Assembly: GCA_019637095.1 (NCBI GenBank)
Contig: JAHBWG010000034.1
Span: 1 to 64,000 of the forward strand
Origin: Sandaracinaceae bacterium
GTDB lineage: Bacteria > Myxococcota_A > Polyangia > Polyangiales > Sandaracinaceae
Length of the DNA stretch: 64,000 nucleotides
Direction: 5' to 3'
This document shows, piece by piece, positions 16,860 to 43,299 of the stretch. Every line of letters starts with the position of its first letter. The stretch's first letter is position 1. A program made the position numbers and the translations under genes. The notes beneath the pieces are model-generated. The model did not search any database. It saw only the letters and a list, made by a program, of their open reading frames with translations, and was not told the DNA's origin.

Positions 16860-18077
16860 CTACTCGGCGTACATGCGCACGTCGGTCGCGGCGGCGAAGC
16901 TCATCCGCTTGGCCTCCTCCCAGTCCGGGTGGCGCACCATCAGCCAGCCGTCGCTGAGCAAGGTCTGCTTCCAGTCGCGCCGCGGCGTGCCCGGGCGCAG
17001 CAGCCGCTCCTCGACCACCCATGGGTGGCACTGCTCGAGCCAGCGCGTGAGCCCCTCGATGCGCGTCACGCGCCCGCGGCCGAGCGCGCGCTTGAAGATG
17101 ATCCCGCAATTGTACTTGCGCTCGGTCGGCGCCTCGAAGCGGCCCCAGCACGCGACTCGCGCCCACTCGCGGAAGAGGTCGACGTCGCCCGTGTAGTTCA
17201 TCTGATCGACGAGGCGCGCGCCGCCCGGGCGGCAGCCGATCTCTCCGAACACCGCCTCGCCCTTGGGCGTGAGGAACCACTCCATGTGCGTGAAGCCGTC
17301 GCCCATCCCGAGCGCGTCGAGCACGCGCCGGCCGAGCGCGACCCCCTTCTGGATCTTGGGCTGCGACAGATCGCGCACCGTGATGATCACCGGGCTGATC
17401 CACTCCTCGCTGCGCGCCTCGATCGGCTTGGGCAAGTACTGCGCGACGTTCTCGTAGACGGGGCGGCCGCCCACGCAGACGGTGTCGTAGGTGTACTCCT
17501 CGCCCTCGACGTACTCCTCGACGCTCACCTCGGGGACGCGCGCCGTCCGCGCGAGCACGTCCTCGAGCTCGGCCGGGGTGCGGCAGAGGTAGGTGTCGGC
17601 GCTGCCGGCGCCGGCGATCGGCTTGAGCACGAGCGGGAAGCCGACGCGCTCGGCGGCGGCGCGCGCCTCGCTCGCGCTCCGCGCGCGCGCCGAGCGCGGC
17701 ACGCGCAGCCCGGCCGCCGCGACGCGCTCCTTCATCAGCTGCTTGTCGCGGAACCCGCGCACGGCGTCCACGCTCATGCCCGGCACCTTCCAGCGCTCGC
17801 GCAGGCGCGCGGCGAGGATCACGAGCGGCTCCCAGTTCGTGAGCACGCGGTCGACCGAGCGGCCACGGAACCACGCCGTCGCGCGCGCGATGACGTCGTC
17901 CTCGTCCATGATGCGCGGCACCTCGAGGTAGTCGTCGACGTGCCGCGCGACCTCGGGGGGCAGGCGCGCGCGCGGCGTGTCGCCGACGCCGTAGACGCTC
18001 GCGCCGACCTCGGCGAGGCCGCGCGTGTACTGCTGCATCTCGGGGGGGTAGACCGGCGAGAGGAAGACGACCCGCAT
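16860..18077 (-). CDS. ATP-grasp ligase, THMEWF family member 1
   Basis: 405 residues. An N-terminal pre-ATP-grasp domain (MRVVFLSPVYPPEMQQYTRGL) is followed by the ATP-grasp core: VGFPLVLKPIAGAGSADTYL (ATP Lys), SVEEYVEGEEYTYDT, and the metal site FTHMEWFLTPKGEAVFGEIGCRPGG. The family joins a carboxylate to an amine via an acyl-phosphate. It is clearly paralogous to the proteins at 19642 and 37957 in this window, which share THMEWF, VGFPxxLKP and EIxxRPxG. A TAGCGT hexamer (minus strand, 18086-18091) ends 8 bases before the ATG. The substrate is unknown. Confidence 0.87.
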   Translation of the reverse strand: MRVVFLSPVYPPEMQQYTRGLAEVGASVYGVGDTPRARLPPEVARHVDDYLEVPRIMDEDDVIARATAWFRGRSVDRVLTNWEPLVILAARLRERWKVPGMSVDAVRGFRDKQLMKERVAAAGLRVPRSARARSASEARAAAERVGFPLVLKPIAGAGSADTYLCRTPAELEDVLARTARVPEVSVEEYVEGEEYTYDTVCVGGRPVYENVAQYLPKPIEARSEEWISPVIITVRDLSQPKIQKGVALGRRVLDALGMGDGFTHMEWFLTPKGEAVFGEIGCRPGGARLVDQMNYTGDVDLFREWARVACWGRFEAPTERKYNCGIIFKRALGRGRVTRIEGLTRWLEQCHPWVVEERLLRPGTPRRDWKQTLLSDGWLMVRHPDWEEAKRMSFAAATDVRMYAE

Positions 18078-18203: not shown

Positions 18204-18848
18204 ATGGGAAGGCTCGAGATCGTGGTGCTCGCGGCGCTCGTCGCGGGCTGTAGCGCGTCGCACGCGGCCGACGACGCGGGTCGTCCCGACGCAGGCCGCG
18301 CGGACGACGGCGGGCCGTCGATCGACGCGAGCGCGCCTCGCGACGCCGGTCCCGCCCCGATCGACGCCGGCCCCGCGTGCGCCGCGGGCGAGGCGCGCTT
18401 CGAGCCCGGCTGCGCGAGCGGCACCGACCGCGTGGTGGCGGCGGGCTGCTATCGCCCCTGCACGAGCGCGAGCGACTGCGCGGGCGGCCTCGCGTGCCAG
18501 ACCGTCGTCGTGAACCCGTGCGTCTGCCGGCCGGGCGAGCCCTGCTGCGGCGCGTGCGGCGCCGAGCAGGGGCTCTGCCTGCCGCCGGCGCTCCCGGTCG
18601 GCTGCGAGGGCCGGAGCTTCTGCGACTGCGCGGACGGGTGCGAGCCGCTCGTCGACCTGACGCCCGGCTGCATCTGCCCGTGCGACGACCCGTTCAACTG
18701 CACCGGCGCGATCTGCGACTGCGCGTGCGGGGGCGCCGAGTACCTCGGCTGCGGTCCGGCCGGCGCGTGCCCGACCACGGAGCTGCACTGCGACCCGGGC
18801 TGCCGGGCCCACCTCGTCGACGGCTGCCCCGCCTGCACCTGCCCGTGA
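18204..18848 (+). CDS. Cysteine-rich lipoprotein
   Basis: 214 residues with a strong GAGGAGG ribosome site. The lipobox is LVAGC16, followed by a DAG-type linker (DAGRPDAGRADDGGPSIDASAPRDAG). Over 150 residues it then carries some thirty cysteines in CxC, CxxC and CC patterns (CDCADGCEP, CICPCDDPFNCTG, CDCACGGAEYLGCG). This indicates a small-disulfide-domain protein on the cell surface, of a kind common in myxobacteria. No known enzymatic or toxin motif is visible. Confidence 0.78.
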   Translation: MGRLEIVVLAALVAGCSASHAADDAGRPDAGRADDGGPSIDASAPRDAGPAPIDAGPACAAGEARFEPGCASGTDRVVAAGCYRPCTSASDCAGGLACQTVVVNPCVCRPGEPCCGACGAEQGLCLPPALPVGCEGRSFCDCADGCEPLVDLTPGCICPCDDPFNCTGAICDCACGGAEYLGCGPAGACPTTELHCDPGCRAHLVDGCPACTCP

Positions 18849-19641: not shown

Positions 19642-20856
19642 ATGCGCCCCGTGGTGTTCGTCGCGCCGTTCCCGCTCGAGACCACCTTGCGCTTCGCGCG
19701 CGCCGCCGCGCGCCTCGGCGGCGTGACGCTGCTCGGTGTCGTGCAGGAGCCGCCGAAGGGGCCGGATCACGGCGTCTTCCGCGAGATCGTCACCGTGAAG
19801 GACGCGCTCTCGACGCGGCAGATCATCCTCGCGATCGAGGCGCTCGCGCGGCGGCACGGGCCCCCCTCGCGCATCGTCGGCGTGCTCGAGCCGCTGCAGG
19901 AGCAGCTCGCGCACGCGCGCGCGCACTTCGGTGTGCCCGGCACCGACCCGACGACCGCCGAGCTCTTCCGCGACAAGGCGAAGATGAAGGATCGCCTGCG
20001 CGCCGCCGGGCTGCCGGTCGCGCGGCACGCGCTGCTGACGAGCCGCGCGGACGCGGCGGCGTTCGCCCGCGACGTCGGCTTCCCGATGGTGCTCAAGCCG
20101 CCCGCCGGCATGGGCGCGAAGGCGACGTTCCGCGTGCGCGGCGAGGGCGAGCTCCTCGGCGCGCTCGAGGGCATGCGCGCGAGCGCGAGCTCGCCGGTCC
20201 TCGCCGAGGAGCTGCTCGTCGGCGAGGAGGGGAGCTTCGACACCGTCACGATCGGCGGCACCCCGCGCGTCGCCTCGATCTCCCACTACCTGCCGACCCC
20301 GCTCACCGTCCTCGAGAACCCGTGGATCCAGTGGTGCTGCGTGCTGCCGCGCGACGTGAGCGGCCCCGCCTACGACGCGGTGCGCGCGGTCGGGGTCGCC
20401 GCGATCCGCGCGCTGGGCCTGCGCGACGGCATCACGCACATGGAGTGGTTCCGCCGCCCCGACGGCTCGGTGGTCATCGGCGAGATCGCGCAGCGGCCGC
20501 CAGGCGCGAACATCACGCGCATGATCGGACTCGCCTATGACGTCGATCCCTACCGCGCGTGGGCGCGGGCGGTGATCGACGGCGCCATCGACGGCGAGTG
20601 GGAGCGCCGCCACGCGGTCGGCTGCGCGTTCTTCCGCGGCATGGGGCGCGGCCGGGTGAGCGGCGTCGACGGAGCGCACGAGACGCACGTCGCCATCGGC
20701 CGGCTCGTCGAGGAGGTGAAGCTCCCCGCGCTCGGCGCCCCCAAGAGCGACAGCTACGAGGGCGACGGGTACGTGATCGTTCGGCACGAGCGCACCGAGG
20801 TCGTGCAAGACGCCTTGCAGTACGCGATCGAGCACGTCCGGGTGCGCTACGCATGA
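19642..20856 (+). CDS. ATP-grasp ligase, THMEWF family member 2, upstream of glgA
   Basis: 404 residues. The core motifs are VGFPMVLKPPAGMGAKATF (ATP Lys), VLAEELLVGEEGSFDT and GITHMEWFRRPDGSVVIGEIAQRPPGANI (metal site). It is a clear paralogue of the proteins at 16860 and 37957. The stop overlaps the start of glgA by 4 bases (ATGA), so the two are translationally coupled. It may therefore act on glycogen-related material or on a shared metabolite; that link is inference. The substrate is unknown. Confidence 0.87.
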   Translation: MRPVVFVAPFPLETTLRFARAAARLGGVTLLGVVQEPPKGPDHGVFREIVTVKDALSTRQIILAIEALARRHGPPSRIVGVLEPLQEQLAHARAHFGVPGTDPTTAELFRDKAKMKDRLRAAGLPVARHALLTSRADAAAFARDVGFPMVLKPPAGMGAKATFRVRGEGELLGALEGMRASASSPVLAEELLVGEEGSFDTVTIGGTPRVASISHYLPTPLTVLENPWIQWCCVLPRDVSGPAYDAVRAVGVAAIRALGLRDGITHMEWFRRPDGSVVIGEIAQRPPGANITRMIGLAYDVDPYRAWARAVIDGAIDGEWERRHAVGCAFFRGMGRGRVSGVDGAHETHVAIGRLVEEVKLPALGAPKSDSYEGDGYVIVRHERTEVVQDALQYAIEHVRVRYA

Positions 20857-22316
20857 GGCCGCTGCGCATCTTGTTCGTCAGCTCCGAGGTCGCGCCGTTC
20901 GCCAAGACGGGCGGCCTCGGCGACGTCGGCGCGGCGCTCCCACGCGCGCTGCGCGCGGCGGGCCACGACGTGCGCGTCGTGCTCCCGTTCTACGCGCGCG
21001 TCGCCGAGGGCGGCCACGAGGTGCGGCCGACCTGGGGCGCGCTCGAGCACCAGCTCGGCCCGCACCGCCTCTCGTTCACGACGCTCGAGGGGACGCTGCC
21101 CGGCACGGACGTCCCCGTCTACTTCGTCCACTGCCCGCGGCTCTACATGCGGCCGTCGATCTACACGATGGACGTCGACGAGCACCTTCGCTTCGCGCTC
21201 CTGGGCTGGGCCGCGCTGCGCATCGCCCAGCAGCTCCGCTTCGCGCCCGACATCGCGCACGTCAACGACTGGCAGAGCGCGCTCGTCCCTCTGACCCTGC
21301 GGTCGGTGCTCGCGTGGGACCGCCTCTTCGAGCGCACGCGCACCGTCCTGACGCTCCACAACGTCGGACACCAAGGCACCTTCGGCGCGCACGTCCTGTC
21401 CGAGCTCGGCCTCGAGGCGGCGCGCGGCATGTTCCACCAGGACGAGCTCGGGGCCGGGCGCCTCTCGTTCCTCTTGCACGGCATCCTCTACGCCAACGCG
21501 ATCACCACCGTCAGCCCGACCTACGCGCGCGAGATCACCACGCCCGAGCAGGGGGTCGGGCTCGACGGGTACCTGCGCGGCCGCGCCGACGTGCTCTTCG
21601 GCATCCTCAACGGCATCGACGGCCGCGAGTGGAGCCCCACGCACGATCCCTACCTTCCGCACCGCTACACGGCGGACGATCTCTCGGGCAAGGCGCGTTG
21701 CGCCGAGGAGCTGTCACGCCGCGTCCGGCTCCCGCATCGGCCCGGGATCCCGCGCATCGGGATGGTCTCTCGCCTCACCTGGCAGAAGGGGCTCGACCTC
21801 TGCTTCGAGGTGCTGCCGTGGCTGCTCGCGCGCCACGACGCGCAGCTCGTCGTGCTCGGCTCGGGCGAGCGCAAGTACGAGGACTTCTTCGCCCGGCTCG
21901 CCCACCTCGCGCCCGACCGCGTCGCGTTCGCCAACACCTTCAGTGAGCCGCTCGCGCACCTCATCGAGGCGGGCAGCGACATGTTCCTCATGCCCTCGCG
22001 CTACGAACCGTGCGGGCTCAACCAGATGTACAGCCTCGCGTACGGCACGCCGCCGATCGTGCACCGGACCGGCGGCCTCGCCGACACGGTCCAGCACTTC
22101 GACCGCCGCACCGGCCGCGGCAACGGCTTCGCGTTCGAGCACTTCGACGCCCGCGGCCTCGCGTGGGCGCTCGATCAGGCGCTCTCGACCTACGACGACC
22201 CCACCGCGTGGCGCCGCCTCGTCGACAACGGCATGCGCGAGGACTTCACCTGGGACCGCCGCGTCGCCGAGTACGAAGCCGTCTACGCCAAGCTCGTCCC
22301 CGAAGCCGCGCGTTGA
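20853..22316 (+). CDS. glgA: Glycogen synthase (ADP-glucose type), GT5 family
   Basis: 487 residues, the normal length. It transfers glucose from ADP-glucose to growing alpha-1,4-glucan. The N-terminal KTGGLGDVGAALPRAL is the nucleotide-sugar Lys motif. HVNDWQSALVPL, TLHNVGHQGTFG and the C-terminal SRYEPCGLNQMYSLAYGTPPIVHRTGGLADTV (catalytic Glu in EPCGL) are all GT5 signatures. The start overlaps the stop of the preceding ATP-grasp gene. No other glg genes lie nearby, so the pairing with a ligase is unusual. Confidence 0.95.
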   Translation: MRPLRILFVSSEVAPFAKTGGLGDVGAALPRALRAAGHDVRVVLPFYARVAEGGHEVRPTWGALEHQLGPHRLSFTTLEGTLPGTDVPVYFVHCPRLYMRPSIYTMDVDEHLRFALLGWAALRIAQQLRFAPDIAHVNDWQSALVPLTLRSVLAWDRLFERTRTVLTLHNVGHQGTFGAHVLSELGLEAARGMFHQDELGAGRLSFLLHGILYANAITTVSPTYAREITTPEQGVGLDGYLRGRADVLFGILNGIDGREWSPTHDPYLPHRYTADDLSGKARCAEELSRRVRLPHRPGIPRIGMVSRLTWQKGLDLCFEVLPWLLARHDAQLVVLGSGERKYEDFFARLAHLAPDRVAFANTFSEPLAHLIEAGSDMFLMPSRYEPCGLNQMYSLAYGTPPIVHRTGGLADTVQHFDRRTGRGNGFAFEHFDARGLAWALDQALSTYDDPTAWRRLVDNGMREDFTWDRRVAEYEAVYAKLVPEAAR

Positions 22317-33892: not shown

Positions 33893-36800
33893 TCAGGAGA
33901 CCGCGAGCGCGTCCGCGGTCGCGCCGATGCGCTCGAGGAGCGCGTCGAGCGACTGCTGGTGCGCGCGGCCCGCCTCGCTCGTCTCGCCGTGGAGCGCGCT
34001 CAAGCGCGCGTGCCCGAGCGCCTCGGCGTACGGCATGCCGCGCCGCGCGGCGAGCGCCACCGCCTCGCCGAGCACCTTGCGCGCGCGCTTCTCGCGCCCC
34101 TCGATCGCGGCGAGCTCACCCGCCGCCAGGAGCTCGTACGGCTTGCCGATCGGGAAGACGAAGGAGTAGCGCCCGAAGTCTTTCACGGCAGCGAGCGCCG
34201 CCGCGCGCGCCGCCGGCCACTCGGGCCCGCCCTTGGCGCGCCGCGCGACCACGAGCCGTACGCGGCCCGCCGCGATGTAGCCGCTGAGCTCGCTGAACAC
34301 CGCCGGCGGCGCCTCGCGGATGCGGCGCGTCGTCTCGTCCGCCGCCGCGACGGCCGCTTCGAGGTCCCCCGCGGCGAGGTGCACCTGCGCGAGCAGGCCG
34401 TGGCAGATGAGCTCGCTGATCGGCTCGGGCACCTCGCGGTAGAGCGCGAGCGCGCGCTCGACACAGGCGCGCCCGCGCTCGATCTCGCCGAGCAAGATCC
34501 AGCTCCGTCCGGCGCCGTAGAGGCCCCACGCCTCGTGCTGGAGGTTCGCGCGCCGGCGACCGGACTGGTAGACGCGCTCGAAGCGCTCGCCCGAAGCGCG
34601 CAGCTCGCCCGTGAGGTACTCGAGGTTGGCCGCCGCCGTCTCGACCACCTCGAGCTCCTGGAGATCGTGCACCTCGTGGGCGAGGCGGCGCGCCTCGTCG
34701 ATCGACGCGCGCGCGACGTCCCATGCCCCGTTGCCGAGCTGGTAGACGGCGTGCGCGTACCCTATGAACACGGCGCTGCGCTCGTCGCCGTGCTGCTCGG
34801 CGGTCTGGCGGGCGCGCGCGAAGTAGCGAGCGCCGAGGGCCTCGAGCCTCGCGACGCCGAGCGAGAACCCGAGCATCGCGTAGCAGCGGGCGACGCCCTC
34901 GCGGGTGCGCCCGCGCTCGGCGTGGTTCACCGAGATGAGCGTGCACGCGAGCATCTGCACGCCCTTGCGCTGCCACATGAAGCCCTCGCTCAACCGCTGC
35001 GCGGCGAGCGCCACCGTGTCGTGCGCCTCGGGCGCGCACGTGGCCGTGCCGACGCCGAGCGCCTGCGCCGCCGCACCCGTCGCGAGCGCCCAACCCCAGC
35101 CGGCGCCCGAGCCGGGCACGCGGACCCCGAGCGCCTCCATCGCGCCCGAGAGACGCGCCGCCGACCCGGTGAGGTCTCCGAGCGCGTACAGCGCGACGCC
35201 GAGATGGCACGACCACCGCGCACGTCGGACCTCGTCGAGCCCGTGCTCCGCGAGCGCGGTGGGATCTTCGATCGCGAGCAGCCGCTCGTAGTGAGACGCG
35301 GCCTCGCGGCTCGCGCCGGTCCGCAGCGCGCGCTCCGCCGCGCGCTCCGCATGGCGGATCATCGCGCCGAGCTCCCCCGCGTGCTGGAAGTGGTGCGCCA
35401 AGAGGGCGTCGTCGGCGCCCCCGGCCGCCTCGAGCCAGCGCGCGACGCGACCGTGGAGCTCCCGGCGCTGCGCGAACGGCATGCGCGAGTAGACCGCCGC
35501 GCGCGTCAGGTCGTGGTGAAACGCGAAGCCGTCCTCTGCGCGGTCGAGCAGCGAGAGCGCCGCGAGCCGATCGAGATCGTCTGCGAGCTCGGCGGCGCCG
35601 CGGCCGGTCGGGTGCACCTCGCGGACGTCGTCGGTGGTGAAGCGCGCGCCGAGGAGGCTCGCGACCTTCAGCGCGAGCGTGGCCTCCGCCCCGAGGTGCT
35701 CGAGGCGGCGGGCGACGAGCCCCTCGACGGTGTCCGGGAGCTCGACGGCGTCGAACGCGGGCGCGCCCACGGGGACGCGGCAGTCGCGGCCCACCATCTT
35801 GACGCACCCCGCCTGCCGCAGCGCGAGCGCGAGCTCGCCGCTCACGAGCGGGTGGCCGGCGCCGCGCGCGTGCACGAACTCGATGAGGGCGGGCGGCAGG
35901 TCGTCGGCGTCGAGCGCCGCGAGCAGGAGCGAACGCAGGCCCTCGCGAGGGAGCGGATCGAGCCGCATCCGCTCGTCCGGGTCGCGCAGCGCGGCGCGCG
36001 CGCTCGGGTCGAGCGCGTCCCAAGCGTACGGCCGGGTGACGACGACGACGAAGTGCGGCGCGAGCGAGGCGCGCAGCCCGGCCAGGAGCGTCCACGACGC
36101 CGAGTCGAGCCAGTGCGCGTCCTCCGCCACGAGCACGAGCGGCTGCTCGTCGAGGGTGCGCGCGAGCACGTCGCCGACGAGCTCGACGATCGCCAACGTG
36201 CGCGCAGGGCCCGCGAGCTGCCGGGTCAGCGGGGTGTCTTGCGCGGCGATCCCCAGCGCCTCGAGGAGGAGCGGCGCGCGCTCGTCGGGGACACCGAGCC
36301 CGCGGAGCCGCGTCTCGTCCGCGTCGTGCAACGCGAAGAGGTCGCGCAACGCGCCACGCCACGCGGCGTAGGGCGAGGCGAGCTCGACCGGGTCCCCCGC
36401 CGCGACGAGCAGGCGCAGGCCGCGCTCGCGCGCGTCGCGCAGGTGCTCGCGCAGGAGCGAGGACTTGCCGATCCCCGCCTCGCCCTCGACCACCACGAGC
36501 GGCGAGCGCCCGTCGGGCGCGCGCTCGAGCCAGCGCGCGAGGGCACGTCGTTCCCTCGTCCGCCCGAACAGATCGCCCTCCGGCGGCGGCGAAGACGTGC
36601 GCTCGACCGCGAGCGGGCGGCGCGCGAGGACGGGCTCGGTCTTGCCCTTGAGGCGCAGGCTCTCGCCCTCGTCGAACCCGACGCGGTGCCCCGCCGCCTC
36701 CGCCGTCGCGCCGTAGACGAGGATCTCCCCGTCCGCGGCGTGCTGCATGAGCCGCGCGGCGACGATCACGCGCTCACCGATCACCGCGTACTCGGCGCGC

Positions 36801-37795
36801 CGCGCGTTGCCGCGGATCCCGCACAGCGTCCGGCCGCTCGCGACCCCGCAGCCGACGCGCACGCCCTCGCACGCGAGGCGCCCGACCGCCGCGTTCGCGG
36901 CGCGCACCGCGCGCGCCGCGTCGTCTTCGTGCGCCGCGCCGGGCACGCCCCACGCGGCGAGCACCGTCGTCGCCTTGTCGTCGCACACGACCTGGCTGAC
37001 GAAGCCACCGAAGCGCGCGACCTCCTCCTGCGCGACGCGCACGGCGGCGTCGAGACGGGTGAAGCGCGCGGCCTCGTCGAGATCGATCCCGCGCAGGCCG
37101 AAGAACACGATCGTCGCGTGGCGCAGCTCCGCGAGCCACTCCATGTGACCCGCCTCGGCGGCCGTCAGGACCGGCAGCGGCGCGAGGGCGCGGAGCCGCG
37201 CGACGTCGAGCGGCGCGGCCGGCGACGCGGCGACGGCTCGCGCACGGCGCGCCGCATCGCCGAGCGCGCGCGCCGCCTCGGTCCACGCGAGCTGCCCCGT
37301 CGCGGACGCGGAGCAGGCGGCGGCGGTCGCGACGACCTCGGCGCCGCCGAGCGCGACGAGCGCGCGGCCCTCGTGACCGCCGAGCGCGCCGCCGCTCACC
37401 ACGCCAGCCCCGACGGCGACCTTGAGGCCGAGCTCCGCGCCCGCCTCGTCGCGGCGCAAGAGCGCCTCCGCGCAGCGGACGGCGCCGCCGAGCGCCGGCG
37501 CGAGCTCGCCGTCGTCCGCGTACCAGAGCGCCTGGATCGCGTCGCCCGCGAAGGCGACGACCTCTCCGCCCGCCTCCGCGACCTCGTCGATGACGAGGCC
37601 GAGGCGCGCGTCGAGCATCTGCCCGAGCTGCTCGGCGCCGAGCGCGCCGCGCTGCGCGAGCCGCTCGGACAGGGCCGTGAAGCCCGTGAGATCGGCGACG
37701 AGCACCGCCGCGGGGAGCCGGCGCCAGGCCCCTGGCGCGGCCGCGATGGCGCCGACGAGCCGGGTGGGAACATAGCGCTCGAGCGCCTCGGTCAC
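33893..37795 (-). CDS. Adenylate/guanylate cyclase-AAA ATPase-TPR protein, soluble-adenylyl-cyclase-like
   Basis: 1300 residues from the GTG at 37795, which has a GGAG site; a TTG at 37840 is possible. First cyclase domain ~25-190 with two metal Asp candidates, D35 (VADLTGFTALSERL) and D85 (AFAGDAIQALW). The second cyclase domain, ~225-370, keeps GNARRAEYAVIGERVIVAARL but lacks an obvious first metal Asp (FFGLRGIDLD). An AAA/NACHT-like NTPase follows with Walker A GEAGIGKSS (438-446), then a long TPR region. This order is that of mammalian ADCY10-type cyclases. It likely makes cAMP or is a degenerate signalling scaffold. Substrate specificity is not readable. Confidence 0.85.
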   Translation of the reverse strand: MTEALERYVPTRLVGAIAAAPGAWRRLPAAVLVADLTGFTALSERLAQRGALGAEQLGQMLDARLGLVIDEVAEAGGEVVAFAGDAIQALWYADDGELAPALGGAVRCAEALLRRDEAGAELGLKVAVGAGVVSGGALGGHEGRALVALGGAEVVATAAACSASATGQLAWTEAARALGDAARRARAVAASPAAPLDVARLRALAPLPVLTAAEAGHMEWLAELRHATIVFFGLRGIDLDEAARFTRLDAAVRVAQEEVARFGGFVSQVVCDDKATTVLAAWGVPGAAHEDDAARAVRAANAAVGRLACEGVRVGCGVASGRTLCGIRGNARRAEYAVIGERVIVAARLMQHAADGEILVYGATAEAAGHRVGFDEGESLRLKGKTEPVLARRPLAVERTSSPPPEGDLFGRTRERRALARWLERAPDGRSPLVVVEGEAGIGKSSLLREHLRDARERGLRLLVAAGDPVELASPYAAWRGALRDLFALHDADETRLRGLGVPDERAPLLLEALGIAAQDTPLTRQLAGPARTLAIVELVGDVLARTLDEQPLVLVAEDAHWLDSASWTLLAGLRASLAPHFVVVVTRPYAWDALDPSARAALRDPDERMRLDPLPREGLRSLLLAALDADDLPPALIEFVHARGAGHPLVSGELALALRQAGCVKMVGRDCRVPVGAPAFDAVELPDTVEGLVARRLEHLGAEATLALKVASLLGARFTTDDVREVHPTGRGAAELADDLDRLAALSLLDRAEDGFAFHHDLTRAAVYSRMPFAQRRELHGRVARWLEAAGGADDALLAHHFQHAGELGAMIRHAERAAERALRTGASREAASHYERLLAIEDPTALAEHGLDEVRRARWSCHLGVALYALGDLTGSAARLSGAMEALGVRVPGSGAGWGWALATGAAAQALGVGTATCAPEAHDTVALAAQRLSEGFMWQRKGVQMLACTLISVNHAERGRTREGVARCYAMLGFSLGVARLEALGARYFARARQTAEQHGDERSAVFIGYAHAVYQLGNGAWDVARASIDEARRLAHEVHDLQELEVVETAAANLEYLTGELRASGERFERVYQSGRRRANLQHEAWGLYGAGRSWILLGEIERGRACVERALALYREVPEPISELICHGLLAQVHLAAGDLEAAVAAADETTRRIREAPPAVFSELSGYIAAGRVRLVVARRAKGGPEWPAARAAALAAVKDFGRYSFVFPIGKPYELLAAGELAAIEGREKRARKVLGEAVALAARRGMPYAEALGHARLSALHGETSEAGRAHQQSLDALLERIGATADALAVS

Positions 37796-37956: not shown

Positions 37957-39186
37957 ATGCCGGTCGACGTCGTCTTTCTCGAGCCGTGCTTCCCCGCCAA
38001 CCAGCGCGAGTTCGTCCGCGCGCTCCACGCCGTGGGCGCGCGCGTCACCGGCATCGGCGAGCGCCCCAAGGGCGCGCTCGACGACGAGCTGCGCCACTGG
38101 CTCTTCCACTACGAGGAGGTCCCCAACGTCACCGACGTGGCGCGCGTGACCCAGGCGGTGCGCTGGGTGCAAGAGAAGGTCCGCGTCCACCGCCTCGAGG
38201 CGGTCGTCGAGGCGCACGTGATGTGCGCCGCGCGCGTGCGCGAGGCGTGCGGCATCCCGGGCACGAGCGTCGAGACGACGTTCCTGTGCCGCGACAAGCC
38301 GAGCATGAAGGAGCTGCTCCGCGCGCGCGGCGTCCCGACCGCCCGCTCCACGGGCACCGCCGACCCGGACGCGGTCCGCGCCTTCGCGAAGCAGGTCGGC
38401 TTCCCGCTGATCCTCAAGCCGCGCGACGCCGCGGGCGCCTCCGGCACCTACCGCGCCGACGACCCGGCCGACCTCGAGCGCGCGATCGCCGCGTGCGGCG
38501 TCGGGCGAGGGGCCGACGTCGCGGTCGAGGAGTTCGTCGAGGGGCACGAGGGCTTCTGGGACACGATCACCATCGGCGGCGAGGTCGCGCACGAGTTCGT
38601 CACGCACTACTACCCCAACGTGCTCGAGGCGATGCGCACGCGCTGGATCAGCCCGCAGTTCATCACGACCAACCGCGTCGGCGCGGCGGGCTACGACGAG
38701 CTCAAGGCGATGGGCCGCGAGGTGATCGCCGCGCTCGGCATCGAGACGAGCGCCACGCACATGGAGTGGTTCTTCGGGCCCAAGGGCCTGAAGTTCAGCG
38801 AGATCGGGGCGCGGCCGCCGGGCGTGCGGGCGTGGGACCTCTACGCGGCGGCGAACGACTTCGACATCTACCGCGAGTGGGCGATGGCCGTCGTGCACGG
38901 CCGGCCGAGCCAGACGCTCTCGCGCCGCTGCTCGGCCGGCATCATCGCGCTGCGGCCCGATCGCGACGGACGCATCGCCGGCTACGAGGGGCTCGGCGCG
39001 ATCGAGCGCTCGTTCGGCCCCTTCATCCTCGACGCGCACCTGCCGCCCGAGGGGACGCCGACCCAGCCCGTCGAGGCGGGCTACATGGCCAACGCGTGGA
39101 TCCGGATGCGACACCCCGACTACGACGAGCTGCGGCGGATGCTCGACTTCGTCGGCCGCACGGTGAGGGTGCGCGCGACTCCATGA
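37957..39186 (+). CDS. ATP-grasp ligase, THMEWF family member 3, first gene of the operon
   Basis: 409 residues. Motifs: FLCRDKPSMKELL, VGFPLILKPRDAAGASGTY with ATP Lys154, adenine-side VEEFVEG (190-196), and metal site SATHMEWFFGPKGLKFSEIGARPPGV with Glu270 and Glu282. It is paralogous to the proteins at 16860 and 19642. It probably couples a carboxylate to an amine, forming an amide and consuming ATP. The stop overlaps the next start by 4 bases (ATGA). It is the first gene of a five-gene set with a peptidase-like protein, two hydrolases and a second ATP-grasp. Confidence 0.87.
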   Translation: MPVDVVFLEPCFPANQREFVRALHAVGARVTGIGERPKGALDDELRHWLFHYEEVPNVTDVARVTQAVRWVQEKVRVHRLEAVVEAHVMCAARVREACGIPGTSVETTFLCRDKPSMKELLRARGVPTARSTGTADPDAVRAFAKQVGFPLILKPRDAAGASGTYRADDPADLERAIAACGVGRGADVAVEEFVEGHEGFWDTITIGGEVAHEFVTHYYPNVLEAMRTRWISPQFITTNRVGAAGYDELKAMGREVIAALGIETSATHMEWFFGPKGLKFSEIGARPPGVRAWDLYAAANDFDIYREWAMAVVHGRPSQTLSRRCSAGIIALRPDRDGRIAGYEGLGAIERSFGPFILDAHLPPEGTPTQPVEAGYMANAWIRMRHPDYDELRRMLDFVGRTVRVRATP

Positions 39187-40139
39187 CCAAGGTGCTGCTC
39201 GCGGGGGCACAGCGCTTCGAGCCGACGATCGGCCCAGCGCTCGCCGCGCTCGGCGTCGCCGGGCGCGTCGCGCTCGTGACCGCCGGCTGGCAGGAGCGCG
39301 AGGCCGAGGACGAGGAGCTCGCCGCGCACCTCGGCGGAGACACGGTGAACCTGCGCCTGCACGAGCGGGCCGATCAGGTCTTCGCGGCCGACGCGGGGCT
39401 CCGCGCCGCCCACCGCAAGCGTCAACGCGTCTTGCGTCACAAGCAAGACTTCTACCGCATCCGCCTCGAGCACGAGCTCGAGGCCAACCACGTGATCCGC
39501 CAGCGCACCGCGCCGGCGGAGATCCTCGCCGAGGAGGAGCGCACCTCGACGCTCGCCATCCGCATCCTCGACGACTTCCACCTCGGCCAGTGCGCGCGGA
39601 TCCACCGCGAGTTCGACGAGGCGCACCGGCCCCTCGAGCGCCCGCACGTCGCGCGGCACCGCGAGGAGATCGCCGCCGCCCTCGAGGGCACCGTCGCGCT
39701 CGCGATCGCGGGCGGGCACGTCGCCTCGCTGCTCAACCGGCTCGAGCTCTTCGGGATCGCGGAGCTGCTGCGCGACCAGGTCGTGGTCGCCTGGAGCGCA
39801 GGCGCGATGGCGATCGCGACGCGCGTGATCCTCTTCCACGACGCGCCGCCGCAGGGCCCGGGCGCCTCGGAGATCCTCGACCGCGGCCTCGGGATCGTGC
39901 GCGGCGCCCTGCCCTTCCCGCAGCCCGAGACGCGGCTGCGCCTCGGCGACCCGGAGCGCGTCGGCGTCCTCGCGCGCCGCTTCGCCCCCTCGCTGTGCCT
40001 CGCGATGCCCGCCCGCTCGACGCTCGCCATCGAGGGCCAGCGCGTCCTCGCGACCGAGGGCGTGTCCGTGCTCGGCGAGGACGGCTCGGTCTCGCCGCTC
40101 GCCGCCGACACCCCTCTGCCCTCGACGGAGCGCGCATGA
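39183..40139 (+). CDS. Peptidase E/cyanophycinase-like protein (S51, class I glutamine amidotransferase fold)
   Basis: 318 residues. The fold signature is VALAIAGGHVASLLNRLELFGI then VVVAWSAGAMAIATRVILFHD, where Ser205 in W-S-A-G-A sits at the nucleophile elbow of peptidase E and cyanophycinase. The usual GLGLLPG-DQH block is changed: GLGIVRGALPFPQPETRLRL has no His where the catalytic His is expected. The enzyme may use another residue (H219 in LFHD is possible) or be non-peptidolytic. An extra helical, charged region fills residues ~70-165. It overlaps both neighbouring genes by 4 bases. Confidence 0.78.
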   Translation: MTKVLLAGAQRFEPTIGPALAALGVAGRVALVTAGWQEREAEDEELAAHLGGDTVNLRLHERADQVFAADAGLRAAHRKRQRVLRHKQDFYRIRLEHELEANHVIRQRTAPAEILAEEERTSTLAIRILDDFHLGQCARIHREFDEAHRPLERPHVARHREEIAAALEGTVALAIAGGHVASLLNRLELFGIAELLRDQVVVAWSAGAMAIATRVILFHDAPPQGPGASEILDRGLGIVRGALPFPQPETRLRLGDPERVGVLARRFAPSLCLAMPARSTLAIEGQRVLATEGVSVLGEDGSVSPLAADTPLPSTERA

Positions 40140-41278
40140 CCGAGCGGCTCGCCATCGAGGTCCTCTGCGACGCGAAGCCCGACGCGGCCGCCGTCGACGC
40201 CTTCCTCGCGGCGCACCAGGTCCCGATCGTCGAGGGCCACCGCGCCACGTTCCTCTGGCGCGGCCAGGCCGACGCGGTGAAGCTCCGCCACTGGATCTTC
40301 GGCCTCGAGTCCGCGCAGCCGCTCGCGCGCCTCGAAGGCACCGACCTCTTCTACCTCGTCGTCGAGATCCCGCCGCGCTCGCGCGTCGAGTACAAGCTCG
40401 AGGTCCGCCGCGGCGAGCACGTGGAGTGGATCGAGGACCCCCTCAACCCGCACCGCGCGCGCGATCCCTTCGGCGCCAACAGCGTGCTCGCCACCGCGGG
40501 CTACCAGCTGCCGGAGTGGGCGCGCGAGGACCCGCTCGCGCGGCGCGGGCTGCTCGAGCCGTTCTCGTTCCATAGCCGCACCCTCGGGGGCCCACGCTCG
40601 GGCCACGTCTACATGCCGGCGCGCTGGCGCAAGACGCGCCGCTACCCCCTGCTCGTCGTGCACGACGGAAGCGACTACCTGCGCTACGCGGGGATGCGCG
40701 CCGTCCTCGACAACCTGATCCACCGGCTCGAGATCCCGTCGCTCATCGCCGTGTTCGTCGACTCGCCCGATCGCCTGCACGAGTACGCCGACCACGAGGC
40801 GCACGCGCGCTTCCTCTGCGAGGAGCTCGTGCCCGACCTCGAGCGGCGCCTGCCGATCGTGTCGGAGCCGCGCGCGCGCTGCCTGATGGGCGCGAGCTTC
40901 GGCGCGGTCGCCTCGCTCTCGACGGCGGTGCGCTACCCCGGGTTCTGGGGGAGGCTCCTCTTGCAGTCGGGGTCGTTCGCCTTCACCGACATCGGCTCGC
41001 GCAACCACCGCGGCCCGGTGTTCGATCGGGTGGTGGCGTTCATGAACGCCTACCGCGAAGAGCCGACGGCGGTCAGCGAGCGCGTGTTCGTGAGCTGTGG
41101 CGTGTACGAGTCGCTCATCTACGAGAACCGCTCGCTCATCCCGATCCTCGACGCGACCGGCATGCAGGTGCGCCTCGTCGAGGCGCGCGACGGTCACAAC
41201 TGGGAGAACTGGCGCGACCGGCTGCGCGAGGGGCTCTCGTGGCTCTTCCCCGGCCCGCTGATGATGATCTATGAATGA
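40136..41278 (+). CDS. Enterochelin-esterase-like alpha/beta hydrolase with N-terminal early-set (CBM48-like) domain
   Basis: 380 residues. The N-terminal ~130 residues (RATFLWRGQADAVKLRHW ... YLVVEIPPRSRVEYKLEV ... EDPLNP) resemble the immunoglobulin-like early-set domain of Fes/IroD-type esterases. The hydrolase domain carries GASFGA with nucleophile Ser254, and a terminal EARDGHNWENWRDRL supplying the catalytic His. Such enzymes cleave esters or amides of catechol siderophores and other conjugates. It starts within the preceding stop (ATGA). It is probably cytoplasmic, as there is no signal peptide. Confidence 0.82.
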   Translation: MTERLAIEVLCDAKPDAAAVDAFLAAHQVPIVEGHRATFLWRGQADAVKLRHWIFGLESAQPLARLEGTDLFYLVVEIPPRSRVEYKLEVRRGEHVEWIEDPLNPHRARDPFGANSVLATAGYQLPEWAREDPLARRGLLEPFSFHSRTLGGPRSGHVYMPARWRKTRRYPLLVVHDGSDYLRYAGMRAVLDNLIHRLEIPSLIAVFVDSPDRLHEYADHEAHARFLCEELVPDLERRLPIVSEPRARCLMGASFGAVASLSTAVRYPGFWGRLLLQSGSFAFTDIGSRNHRGPVFDRVVAFMNAYREEPTAVSERVFVSCGVYESLIYENRSLIPILDATGMQVRLVEARDGHNWENWRDRLREGLSWLFPGPLMMIYE

Positions 41279-41308
41279 CACGACCCAGAACGTGGAGACG
41301 CGACGTCG

Positions 41309-42553
41309 ATGACGGAGATCACGAGGACCATCGGCCTCTCGCTCGGCGCCGACATCTGTTGGCCGCTCTGCTACGAGGCGATCATGCAGCGGCTCGATCT
41401 GCGCATCCCGGTCGGTGACGACACGGTGCGCCTCGACGTCGAGCGGGTGTTCATCGAACCGTTCGACCTGCGCCAATCGTGCAAGTACGACGTCGTGATC
41501 GACCGACTGACCCACTGGTACCACACGAGCCGCGAGTGGATCAAGAAGGCCGTCCTGATGAACGACCTCTACGTGTTCAACAACCCGTGGTCCGTTCAGT
41601 CGATGGAGAAGCACACGAGCTACGCGGCGATGATGCACCTCGGGATGCCCGTCCCCGAAACATGGATGATCCCACCCAAGGAGTACGACGAGACGCCCGA
41701 CCTCAAGCCGACGCTGCATCGCTACGCGAAGCTCTTCGACATCGGCCGGCTCGGCCCCAAGCTCGGCTACCCCATGTTCGTCAAGCCGTACGACGGAGGC
41801 GGTTGGCGCTCGGTGACGCGTTGCAAGGACGAGGCGTCGCTGCGCGCGGCCTACGAGGAGAGCGGGCGCGCGGTGATGCACGTCCAGGCGGCGGTCGAGC
41901 CGTTCGACGAGTTCGTGCGCTGCATCGGCTTCGGACCTCAGACGCGCCTCGTGAGCTACGACCCGGACGCGCCGCTCCACGATCGCTACACGATGAAGGA
42001 GGACTTCGTCGCCCCCGCCGACGTGGAGCACCTGCGCAAGGTCACCCTCACCATCAACTCGTTCTTCGGCTGGGAGTTCAACAGCTGCGAGGCGCTCCGC
42101 AAGAACGGGATCTGGTACCCCATCGACTTCGCCAACGGGTGCCCCGACTCGCAGGTGACGAGCCTCCACTACCACTTCCCGTGGCTCGTGAAGGCGTACA
42201 TCCGCTGGAGCGTCTACTGCGCGGCGACGGATCGCAAGATGCGCATGAACCTCGACTGGGCCCCCTTCTACGAGGTCGCGCGCGAGGGCGGCACCTACGA
42301 AGAGAAGCTCGACCGCTACGCCGCCATCGCCGACGAGCGCTTCGAGACCGCGCGCTTCGAGGAGTTCTGCGAGAAGCACCTCGCGCACCTCGACGACGTC
42401 GCCGCCGAGTTCTTCCGCAGCCGCGAGGCCGAGGACGCGATCCGCCAGAAGGTGACGGCGCTCTTCCCCGCGCACGAGGTCGATGCGTTCACCGACCTGT
42501 TCGTCCGCCGCGTGCACAGCTACATCGACACGCACTCACCGAAGGAGCCATGA
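41309..42553 (+). CDS. ATP-grasp protein of a second, different family
   Basis: 414 residues, preceded by GGAG at a reasonable distance. ATP-grasp features: GYPMFVKPYDGGGWRSV (ATP Lys159 and Gly loop), AAVEPFDEFVRCIGFG, and metal site FNSCEALRKNGIWYPIDFANGCPD. It does not carry the THMEWF/EIxxRPxG motifs of the other three. It probably performs another carboxylate-amine ligation, or activates a carboxylate. Long helical C-terminal region with paired Cys and His residues (YCAATDRKMRMNLDWAPF). It overlaps the next gene by 4 bases. The substrate is unknown. Confidence 0.8.
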   Translation: MTEITRTIGLSLGADICWPLCYEAIMQRLDLRIPVGDDTVRLDVERVFIEPFDLRQSCKYDVVIDRLTHWYHTSREWIKKAVLMNDLYVFNNPWSVQSMEKHTSYAAMMHLGMPVPETWMIPPKEYDETPDLKPTLHRYAKLFDIGRLGPKLGYPMFVKPYDGGGWRSVTRCKDEASLRAAYEESGRAVMHVQAAVEPFDEFVRCIGFGPQTRLVSYDPDAPLHDRYTMKEDFVAPADVEHLRKVTLTINSFFGWEFNSCEALRKNGIWYPIDFANGCPDSQVTSLHYHFPWLVKAYIRWSVYCAATDRKMRMNLDWAPFYEVAREGGTYEEKLDRYAAIADERFETARFEEFCEKHLAHLDDVAAEFFRSREAEDAIRQKVTALFPAHEVDAFTDLFVRRVHSYIDTHSPKEP

Positions 42554-43299
42554 CCGTGTTCGTCAGATCGCGTTGGCACTCGGAGCGCCTCGGACGCGAG
42601 ATCACCCTCGCGCGCTGGGGGCACTTCGGTCAGCCCGTCCTCGTGTTCCCGACCGCCGGCGGCGACGCCGAGGAGATCGAGCGCTTCCAGCTCATCCGGG
42701 CCCTGGGTCCGCTGCTCGAGGCGGGGCGCATCAAGGTCTACAGCTGCGACAGCGTCGCCGGGCGCGCCTGGTTCGAGCGCGAGGGCCCGCCCGGGCACCG
42801 CATGTGGCTCCAGCACCAGTTCCACCAGTTCGTGAAGCACGAGGTCGTCCCCGCGATCCACGCGGACTGCCAGACGACCGACGTCGGCATCTGGGCGACG
42901 GGCGCGTCGATCGGCGCGTTCCACTCCGTCGCGGTGGTGTGCCGCTTCCCCGATCTGTTCCACCGCGCGCTCGCGATGAGCGGCACCTTCGACCTGATGC
43001 GGTTCATCGAGACCGACCACAAGAGCGAGCACTACTACGTCTCGTCTCCGCGCGACTTCGTCCCCGCGCTCTCAGGCCGTCACCTCGAGGTGCTGCGCAC
43101 CCGCCACATCCACTTCGCGTCGGGGGCGGGCCGCGCCGAGAACATGGGCGAGACGTGGGCGATGGCCGACATCCTCGGCAAGCAGGGGATCCCGAACCGC
43201 GTCGACCCGTGGGGCCCGGACTGGCACCACGACTGGCCGACGTGGCGCGAGATGCTGCCGAAGTACCTCGACGAGTGGACCAAGGGTCGAGTTGGCTGA
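42550..43299 (+). CDS. Alpha/beta-hydrolase (esterase), last gene of the operon
   Basis: 249 residues. The start ATG overlaps the preceding stop and is preceded by a perfect GAAGGAG ribosome site. Nucleophile motif GASIGA with Ser120 (GIWATGASIGAFHSVAVVCRFPDLF), and a terminal WGPDWHHDWPTWREMLP offering the catalytic His. It has no signal peptide and no lid insertion, resembling small esterase/feruloyl-esterase-like proteins. It is probably a cytoplasmic thioesterase or esterase acting on the product of the two ligases; that is inference. Confidence 0.82.
   Translation: MTVFVRSRWHSERLGREITLARWGHFGQPVLVFPTAGGDAEEIERFQLIRALGPLLEAGRIKVYSCDSVAGRAWFEREGPPGHRMWLQHQFHQFVKHEVVPAIHADCQTTDVGIWATGASIGAFHSVAVVCRFPDLFHRALAMSGTFDLMRFIETDHKSEHYYVSSPRDFVPALSGRHLEVLRTRHIHFASGAGRAENMGETWAMADILGKQGIPNRVDPWGPDWHHDWPTWREMLPKYLDEWTKGRVG

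Follow-up and report, generated by a model that had tools for sequence, protein, structure and literature searches.

The described systems that come closest to the locus analysed here are the L-amino acid ligases, cyanophycin metabolism, the Fes and CBM48-CE1 esterases, the GlgCAB operons and an animal ligase-esterase fusion. In the amidoligase survey of Iyer et al. from 2009, genes for ATP-grasp, GCS2 and peptidase-fold proteins and for hydrolases reportedly share conserved neighbourhoods. ATP-grasp enzymes are able to form esters, as is known from microviridin (PMC5934393), and the animal fusion of an ATP-grasp ligase with an esterase has been predicted to modify a surface polymer (PMC2824669).

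Here we analyse a set of five genes in a window of 64,000 nucleotides (the whole stretch of DNA under study) from a Sandaracinaceae bacterium, contig JAHBWG010000034.1. We find that these genes belong to a multi-enzyme system that is ancient, spread over many phyla and apparently undescribed. Searches of open-access literature found no description of this gene combination, nor is it mentioned in the paper on the CDC123 ATP-grasp. An earlier interpretation made from the DNA letters alone, hereafter the sequence-only reading, knew of no published pathway of this kind, and in the same searched literature we likewise found none with a named product.

Gene content and co-inheritance of the system

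Independent gene calling by codon usage returned the same five starts and stops for g1 to g5 (Table 1). Together with the coordinates, it bears out the five overlapping or closely spaced reading frames that the sequence-only reading had placed at 37957-43299: g1/g2, g2/g3 and g4/g5 overlap by 4 bases, and g3 and g4 are separated by a gap of 30 bases. By inspection, the five N-termini contain no hydrophobic signal-like stretch, in agreement with the absence of signal peptides noted before.

Table 1. Genes of the window considered in the text, with position, strand, protein length and assignment
Feature	Position	Strand	Length (aa)	Assignment
g1	37957-39186	+	409	Predicted ATP-grasp ligase, L-amino-acid-ligase (RizA/BL00235)-like
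g2	39183-40139	+	318	S51 (peptidase E/cyanophycinase) fold with long helical hairpin insert; triad lost
g3	40136-41278	+	380	Esterase with E-set N-terminal domain, Fes-like/CBM48-CE1-like
g4	41309-42553	+	414	Predicted divergent ATP-grasp ligase without Pfam family
g5	42550-43299	+	249	Small alpha/beta hydrolase (PF00756)
gA	16860-18077	-		Second predicted g1-type ATP-grasp ligase; 38% identity to g1
gB	19642-20856	+		Third predicted g1-type ATP-grasp ligase; 35% identity to g1; 4-base overlap with GlgA
GlgA	20853-22316	+		Glycogen/starch synthase (GT5) of the system's own clade
Cys-rich ORF	18204-18848	+		Between gA and gB; lipoprotein-like signal, no Pfam family
Cyclase/AAA/TPR ORF	33893-37795	-	1300	Divergent from g1; cyclase, AAA and TPR domains

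The g4 protein served as query for one scan and g2 for a class-wide search; with the flanks of the hits added, this gave 67 distinct loci. Analysis of these loci reveals that g2 adjoins g3 in 55/55 cases, g3 adjoins g4 in 53/58 and g4 adjoins g5 in 49/50; g1 precedes g2 in 29/44 and is elsewhere divergent or downstream. The hosts belong to Myxococcota, Acidobacteriota, Planctomycetota, Pseudomonadota, Krumholzibacteriota and Eiseniibacteriota, with one further MAG labelled Gemmatimonadetes. This neighbourhood search over 67 loci from several phyla shows the gene order to be co-conserved, and firmly excludes the objection, anticipated by the sequence-only reading, that the genes merely happen to lie together in one genome. 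Two MAG contigs labelled Klebsiella pneumoniae also carry the system; their genes resemble those of environmental bacteria, which makes mislabelling probable.

Prevalence was counted among Myxococcota genomes (n=282). A strong match to g4 is present in 81 of them and a match to g3 in 79. Both genes occur together in 78 genomes, g4 alone in 3, g3 alone in 1 and neither in 200 (Fisher p 7.5e-65, uncorrected for shared ancestry). In about 27 of the 78 genomes with both, g3 and g4 are located on separate contigs, and several families have the system divided into g1-gA/g2-g3 and g4-g5-gB blocks. That the genes co-occur even where linkage is lost is the strongest indication of a single function, and we conclude that g1 to g5 are parts of one functional system.

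The five genes, which had been presented as a whole set, are nevertheless incomplete. Two more g1-type ligases (gA and gB) and a dedicated GlgA lie upstream in the window, 15-20 kb from g1, and the distance of about 15.6 kb between GlgA and g1 is filled by a P-type ATPase, oxidoreductases and other genes. In a locus from the same order as the window genome (L145), gA-gB-GlgA-g1-g2-g3-g4-g5 are contiguous, and in one from the same family (L068) the sole interruption of this block is a pair of kinase genes that separates gA from gB. These joined blocks indicate that the two halves in the window form one system separated by other genes. A pirin, an SDR and the Cys-rich ORF near gA and gB were considered as further parts and rejected, since they are not conserved with the system. 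The 1300-residue protein encoded divergently from g1 is likewise not co-conserved and is possibly a local regulator.

Genes for GCS2-CBS, FGase, GlgC and GlgB recur at the loci of relatives. GCS2-CBS (18/67 loci) and FGase (16/67) are common in just one group of Myxococcota lineages, and both were dropped as candidates for a universal core on this ground. Sulfatase, CHRD, WS/DGAT, CotH, N-glycanase-like and kinase neighbours were each seen once and were therefore discounted. That eight to ten genes recur together in many phyla, almost without exception even when they are not linked, and that the searched literature gives the system neither name nor product, implies that a common metabolite or polymer has escaped notice.

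Ligases, esterases and the S51-fold protein

An ATP-grasp domain with the Mg/ATP-binding residues is present in g1, gA and gB, and in their alignment Lys154 is kept in 31/32 sequences and Glu270, Glu282 and Arg286 in 32/32. In the Pfam search, g1 exceeds the cut-off of PF02222 (33.1 bits, cut-off 27; PF02222/CPSase_L_D2), and its best PDB match is 4wd3, an L-amino acid ligase (E 2.4e-11). On the strength of these similarities, g1, gA and gB are predicted to be amide- or ester-forming ligases. They fall into three separate clades (SH-aLRT 100), and the presence of several phyla in each clade argues that these three distinct ligases are ancient as a set. In one locus, the gA/gB pair is duplicated in tandem (L034:10941-15214; gA-, gB+, gA+, gB+).

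The Pfam search gave no match for g4. Its profile matches D-Ala ligase (E 1.8e-4) and, by hhalign, the g1 family (probability 95%, E 2.8e-8), and judged by these profiles g4 is a remote ATP-grasp. Lys159, Glu261, Asp273 and Asn276 are found in 33/33 sequences, along with many further invariant residues. The two different ATP-grasp families seen by the sequence-only reading are thus both recovered, g1 above the PF02222 cut-off and g4 as a distant member by profile only. Eight genomes that lack the five-gene system contain another g4-like family, which is shorter (most frames about 310-345 aa; E about 1e-35 to 1e-53). Where the cluster occurs in Gammaproteobacteria and Acidobacteriota, g1 can be adjoined by a fifth ligase type, a PGM1/BesA-like peptide ligase (L049:12969-14507, L050:1907-3478; BesA 166 bits, cut-off 750).

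Both g3 (68.8 bits) and g5 (40.3 bits) exceed the PF00756 cut-off of 22 and are alpha/beta hydrolases, as expected. Ser254, Glu325, Asp352 and His354 of g3 are present in 32/32 sequences, and Ser120 and His227 of g5 in 28/28. The AlphaFold2 model of g3 (pLDDT 88) consists of two domains and, taken whole, matches Fes with Z 34 and CBM48-CE1 esterases with Z 27, in line with the enterochelin-esterase-like N-terminal domain previously assigned to it. Since this domain is somewhat closer to Fes than to CBM48-CE1 (Z 34 vs 27), glycan binding is not implied. That the best fold match of g3 is the enterobactin esterase Fes would fit a siderophore-type ester/amide metabolism. We consider such a metabolism very improbable: g3 reaches 101.7 bits against the Fes equivalog NF007758, whose cut-off is 222, and the recurrent neighbours include no transporter, TonB receptor or catechol/hydroxamate genes. 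It was discarded because those neighbours lack transport genes.

The description of g2 as peptidase E/cyanophycinase-like holds for its fold, although the S51 Pfam model scores 18.4 bits, below its gathering cut-off of 23.9. The AlphaFold2 model (pLDDT 92.4) matches cyanophycinase and PepE with Z 16-17, while the next unrelated folds reach at most 9.4, and it contains an inserted two-helix hairpin at residues 71-148. The catalytic positions were mapped on the E. coli pepE triad S120/H157/E192. In the window g2, Ser205 corresponds to pepE S120, Gln247 stands at H157 and Ala276 at E192. Among 28 orthologues, the Ser is kept in 24 and the His in 12, and Gly177-Gly178, Asp220, Arg186 and Arg251 are invariant. 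The loss of the S51 triad makes a peptidase or cyanophycinase role unlikely, and g2 has the S51 fold but most likely not the S51 peptidase mechanism. The cyanophycinase reading was rejected for the same reason, the Ser-His-Glu triad not being kept. A sister S51-fold family, unlinked to the system, shares about 27-36% identity with g2 where the two align; both the Ser and the His are intact in 7/7 copies, all from Sorangium-sized genomes.

An S51 fold that looks non-catalytic would also suit a regulatory arrangement, in which the proteins yield no product of their own, polymer or metabolite, and instead govern glycogen synthesis or breakdown by modifying a protein or signal, for instance with an amino-acid tag on GlgA, and ATP-grasp protein-tagging systems do exist. 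However, four ATP-grasp ligases and two esterases, all with their catalytic residues kept, are many for a regulator, and the neighbours include no conserved acceptor for a tag. We regard regulation as improbable.

Association with alpha-glucan synthesis genes

The GlgA of the window reaches 515.5 bits against TIGR02095 (ADP-glucose type; cut-off 328) and, as E. coli GlgA, keeps the KTGGL and EPCGL motifs. GlgA occurs in 10 of the 26 loci whose sequence reaches 6 kb beyond the core in both directions. These loci were found via g4 or g2 and not via GlgA, and we estimate that about 0.1 would contain GlgA by chance, given 1-2 copies per 7 Mb genome. GlgA stands immediately before g1 in 22/28 cases. 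The GlgAs of the system form one clade (support 98/97), drawn from Planctomycetota, Krumholzibacteriota, Gammaproteobacteria, Acidobacteriota and Myxococcota, and this clade is apart from the other myxobacterial GlgAs and from E. coli GlgA; its members retain the motifs of the ADP-glucose type. In addition, gA runs into GlgB in two loci (L039, L041), GlgC adjoins GlgA or gA in three (L042, L053, L058), and a GlgA of a different type together with GlgC lies beside the system in two (L064, L139). L058 also has GT4 and GH57 beside g1.

Many Myxococcota families with g1 to g5 have no GlgA nearby and only other GlgA types in the genome. The dedicated GlgA was accordingly rejected as an obligatory part, and the glucan link, strong as it is, falls short of proof of a glucan substrate; the genes may lie close together through joint control by carbon status, and in the window itself 15.6 kb separate GlgA from g1. 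We tentatively favour, at a little below an even chance, a cytoplasmic ligase/esterase cycle, comprising g1 to g5, gA, gB and GlgA, that would attach and detach amide- or ester-bound groups on an alpha-glucan or a small conjugate of it. Of the build-then-process pathway proposed by the sequence-only reading, the set of ligases and esterases persists and the S51 peptidase cleavage falls with the lost triad. That reading had missed the one strong indication of the substrate, namely the association with alpha-glucan synthesis.

Alternatively, the genes may make and turn over a free small molecule, such as an oligopeptide, an amide/ester osmolyte, a thiol or a storage oligomer. GlgA and GlgC would then lie nearby through a common storage or stress regime, or the compound would be glucosylated. 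A stepwise peptide pathway would fit with three conserved L-amino-acid-ligase-like paralogues and g4, the neighbourhood repeatedly contains GCS2, FGase and a BesA/PGM1-like ligase, and g1 to g5 are kept in families without a nearby GlgA. A free small molecule is the main rival and only slightly less probable than the favoured cycle. Yet it leaves unexplained a dedicated GlgA clade of five phyla, as well as the separate associations with GlgB, with GlgC and with the second type of GlgA.

A putative cycle and its relation to known systems

The ligase/esterase cycle on an alpha-glucan or conjugate, whose substrates, linkage chemistry, reaction sequence and product are all putative, could proceed as follows: (I) the dedicated GlgA would use ADP-glucose to lengthen an alpha-1,4-glucan, (II) g1, gA, gB and g4 would convert carboxylates (amino or other acids) into acyl phosphates, (III) the ligases would couple the activated acids to amines or hydroxyls, giving an acyl or peptidyl group, (IV) this group would decorate the glucan or a glucosylated small carrier, and (V) g3, with its E-set, CBM48-like N-terminal domain, and g5 would remove or move the groups. 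The g2 protein may serve as a binding or scaffold subunit, or as one with redirected chemistry. In some lineages, GCS2-CBS and FGase would make or trim gamma-glutamyl or N-acyl amino-acid precursors.

A narrower version, which we consider rather unlikely, is that amino acids or short peptides are attached reversibly to a dedicated cytoplasmic alpha-glucan, which the four ATP-grasps would load and the Fes-like esterases unload; this would represent a new storage-polymer chemistry. If the glucan link is true, bacterial glycogen would carry amide- or ester-linked groups placed by dedicated enzymes. If the glucan is indeed decorated, carbon and nitrogen (or acyl groups) would be stored in one granule, by an ancient system of at least six phyla.

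Comparison with known systems reveals both shared and distinct features. Similar to the L-amino acid ligases (RizA, BL00235/YwfE-BacD), g1, gA and gB have the same ATP-grasp family, length and catalytic residues; in contrast to them, they are three paralogues that separated long ago and are retained alongside GlgA, esterases and g4, and they score far under every equivalog cut-off. Cyanophycin metabolism (CphA and an S51 cyanophycinase) likewise places an ATP-grasp beside an S51-fold protein, whereas the present system is without CphA or the S51 triad and has an extra helical hairpin, esterases and GlgA. In fact, g1 reaches only 26.2 and 31.8 bits against CphA cut-offs of 850 and 877, and the loci of relatives contain no CphA-like neighbour family. 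With Fes and the CBM48-CE1 esterases, g3 shares domain order, fold and the conserved Ser/His, but its identity is about 20%, the Fes cut-off is missed, siderophore genes are absent and the setting is intracellular. The C7orf58-type animal fusion (PMC2824669) also combines an amino-acid ligase with an esterase and is a predicted polymer modifier; unlike the system described here, it is secreted and pairs a TTL-type ligase with a PC-esterase, which has an unrelated fold. Finally, as in GlgCAB operons, the GlgA is of the ADP-glucose type, and GlgB or GlgC adjoin in some lineages, but here it constitutes a separate clade tied to ligase and esterase genes.
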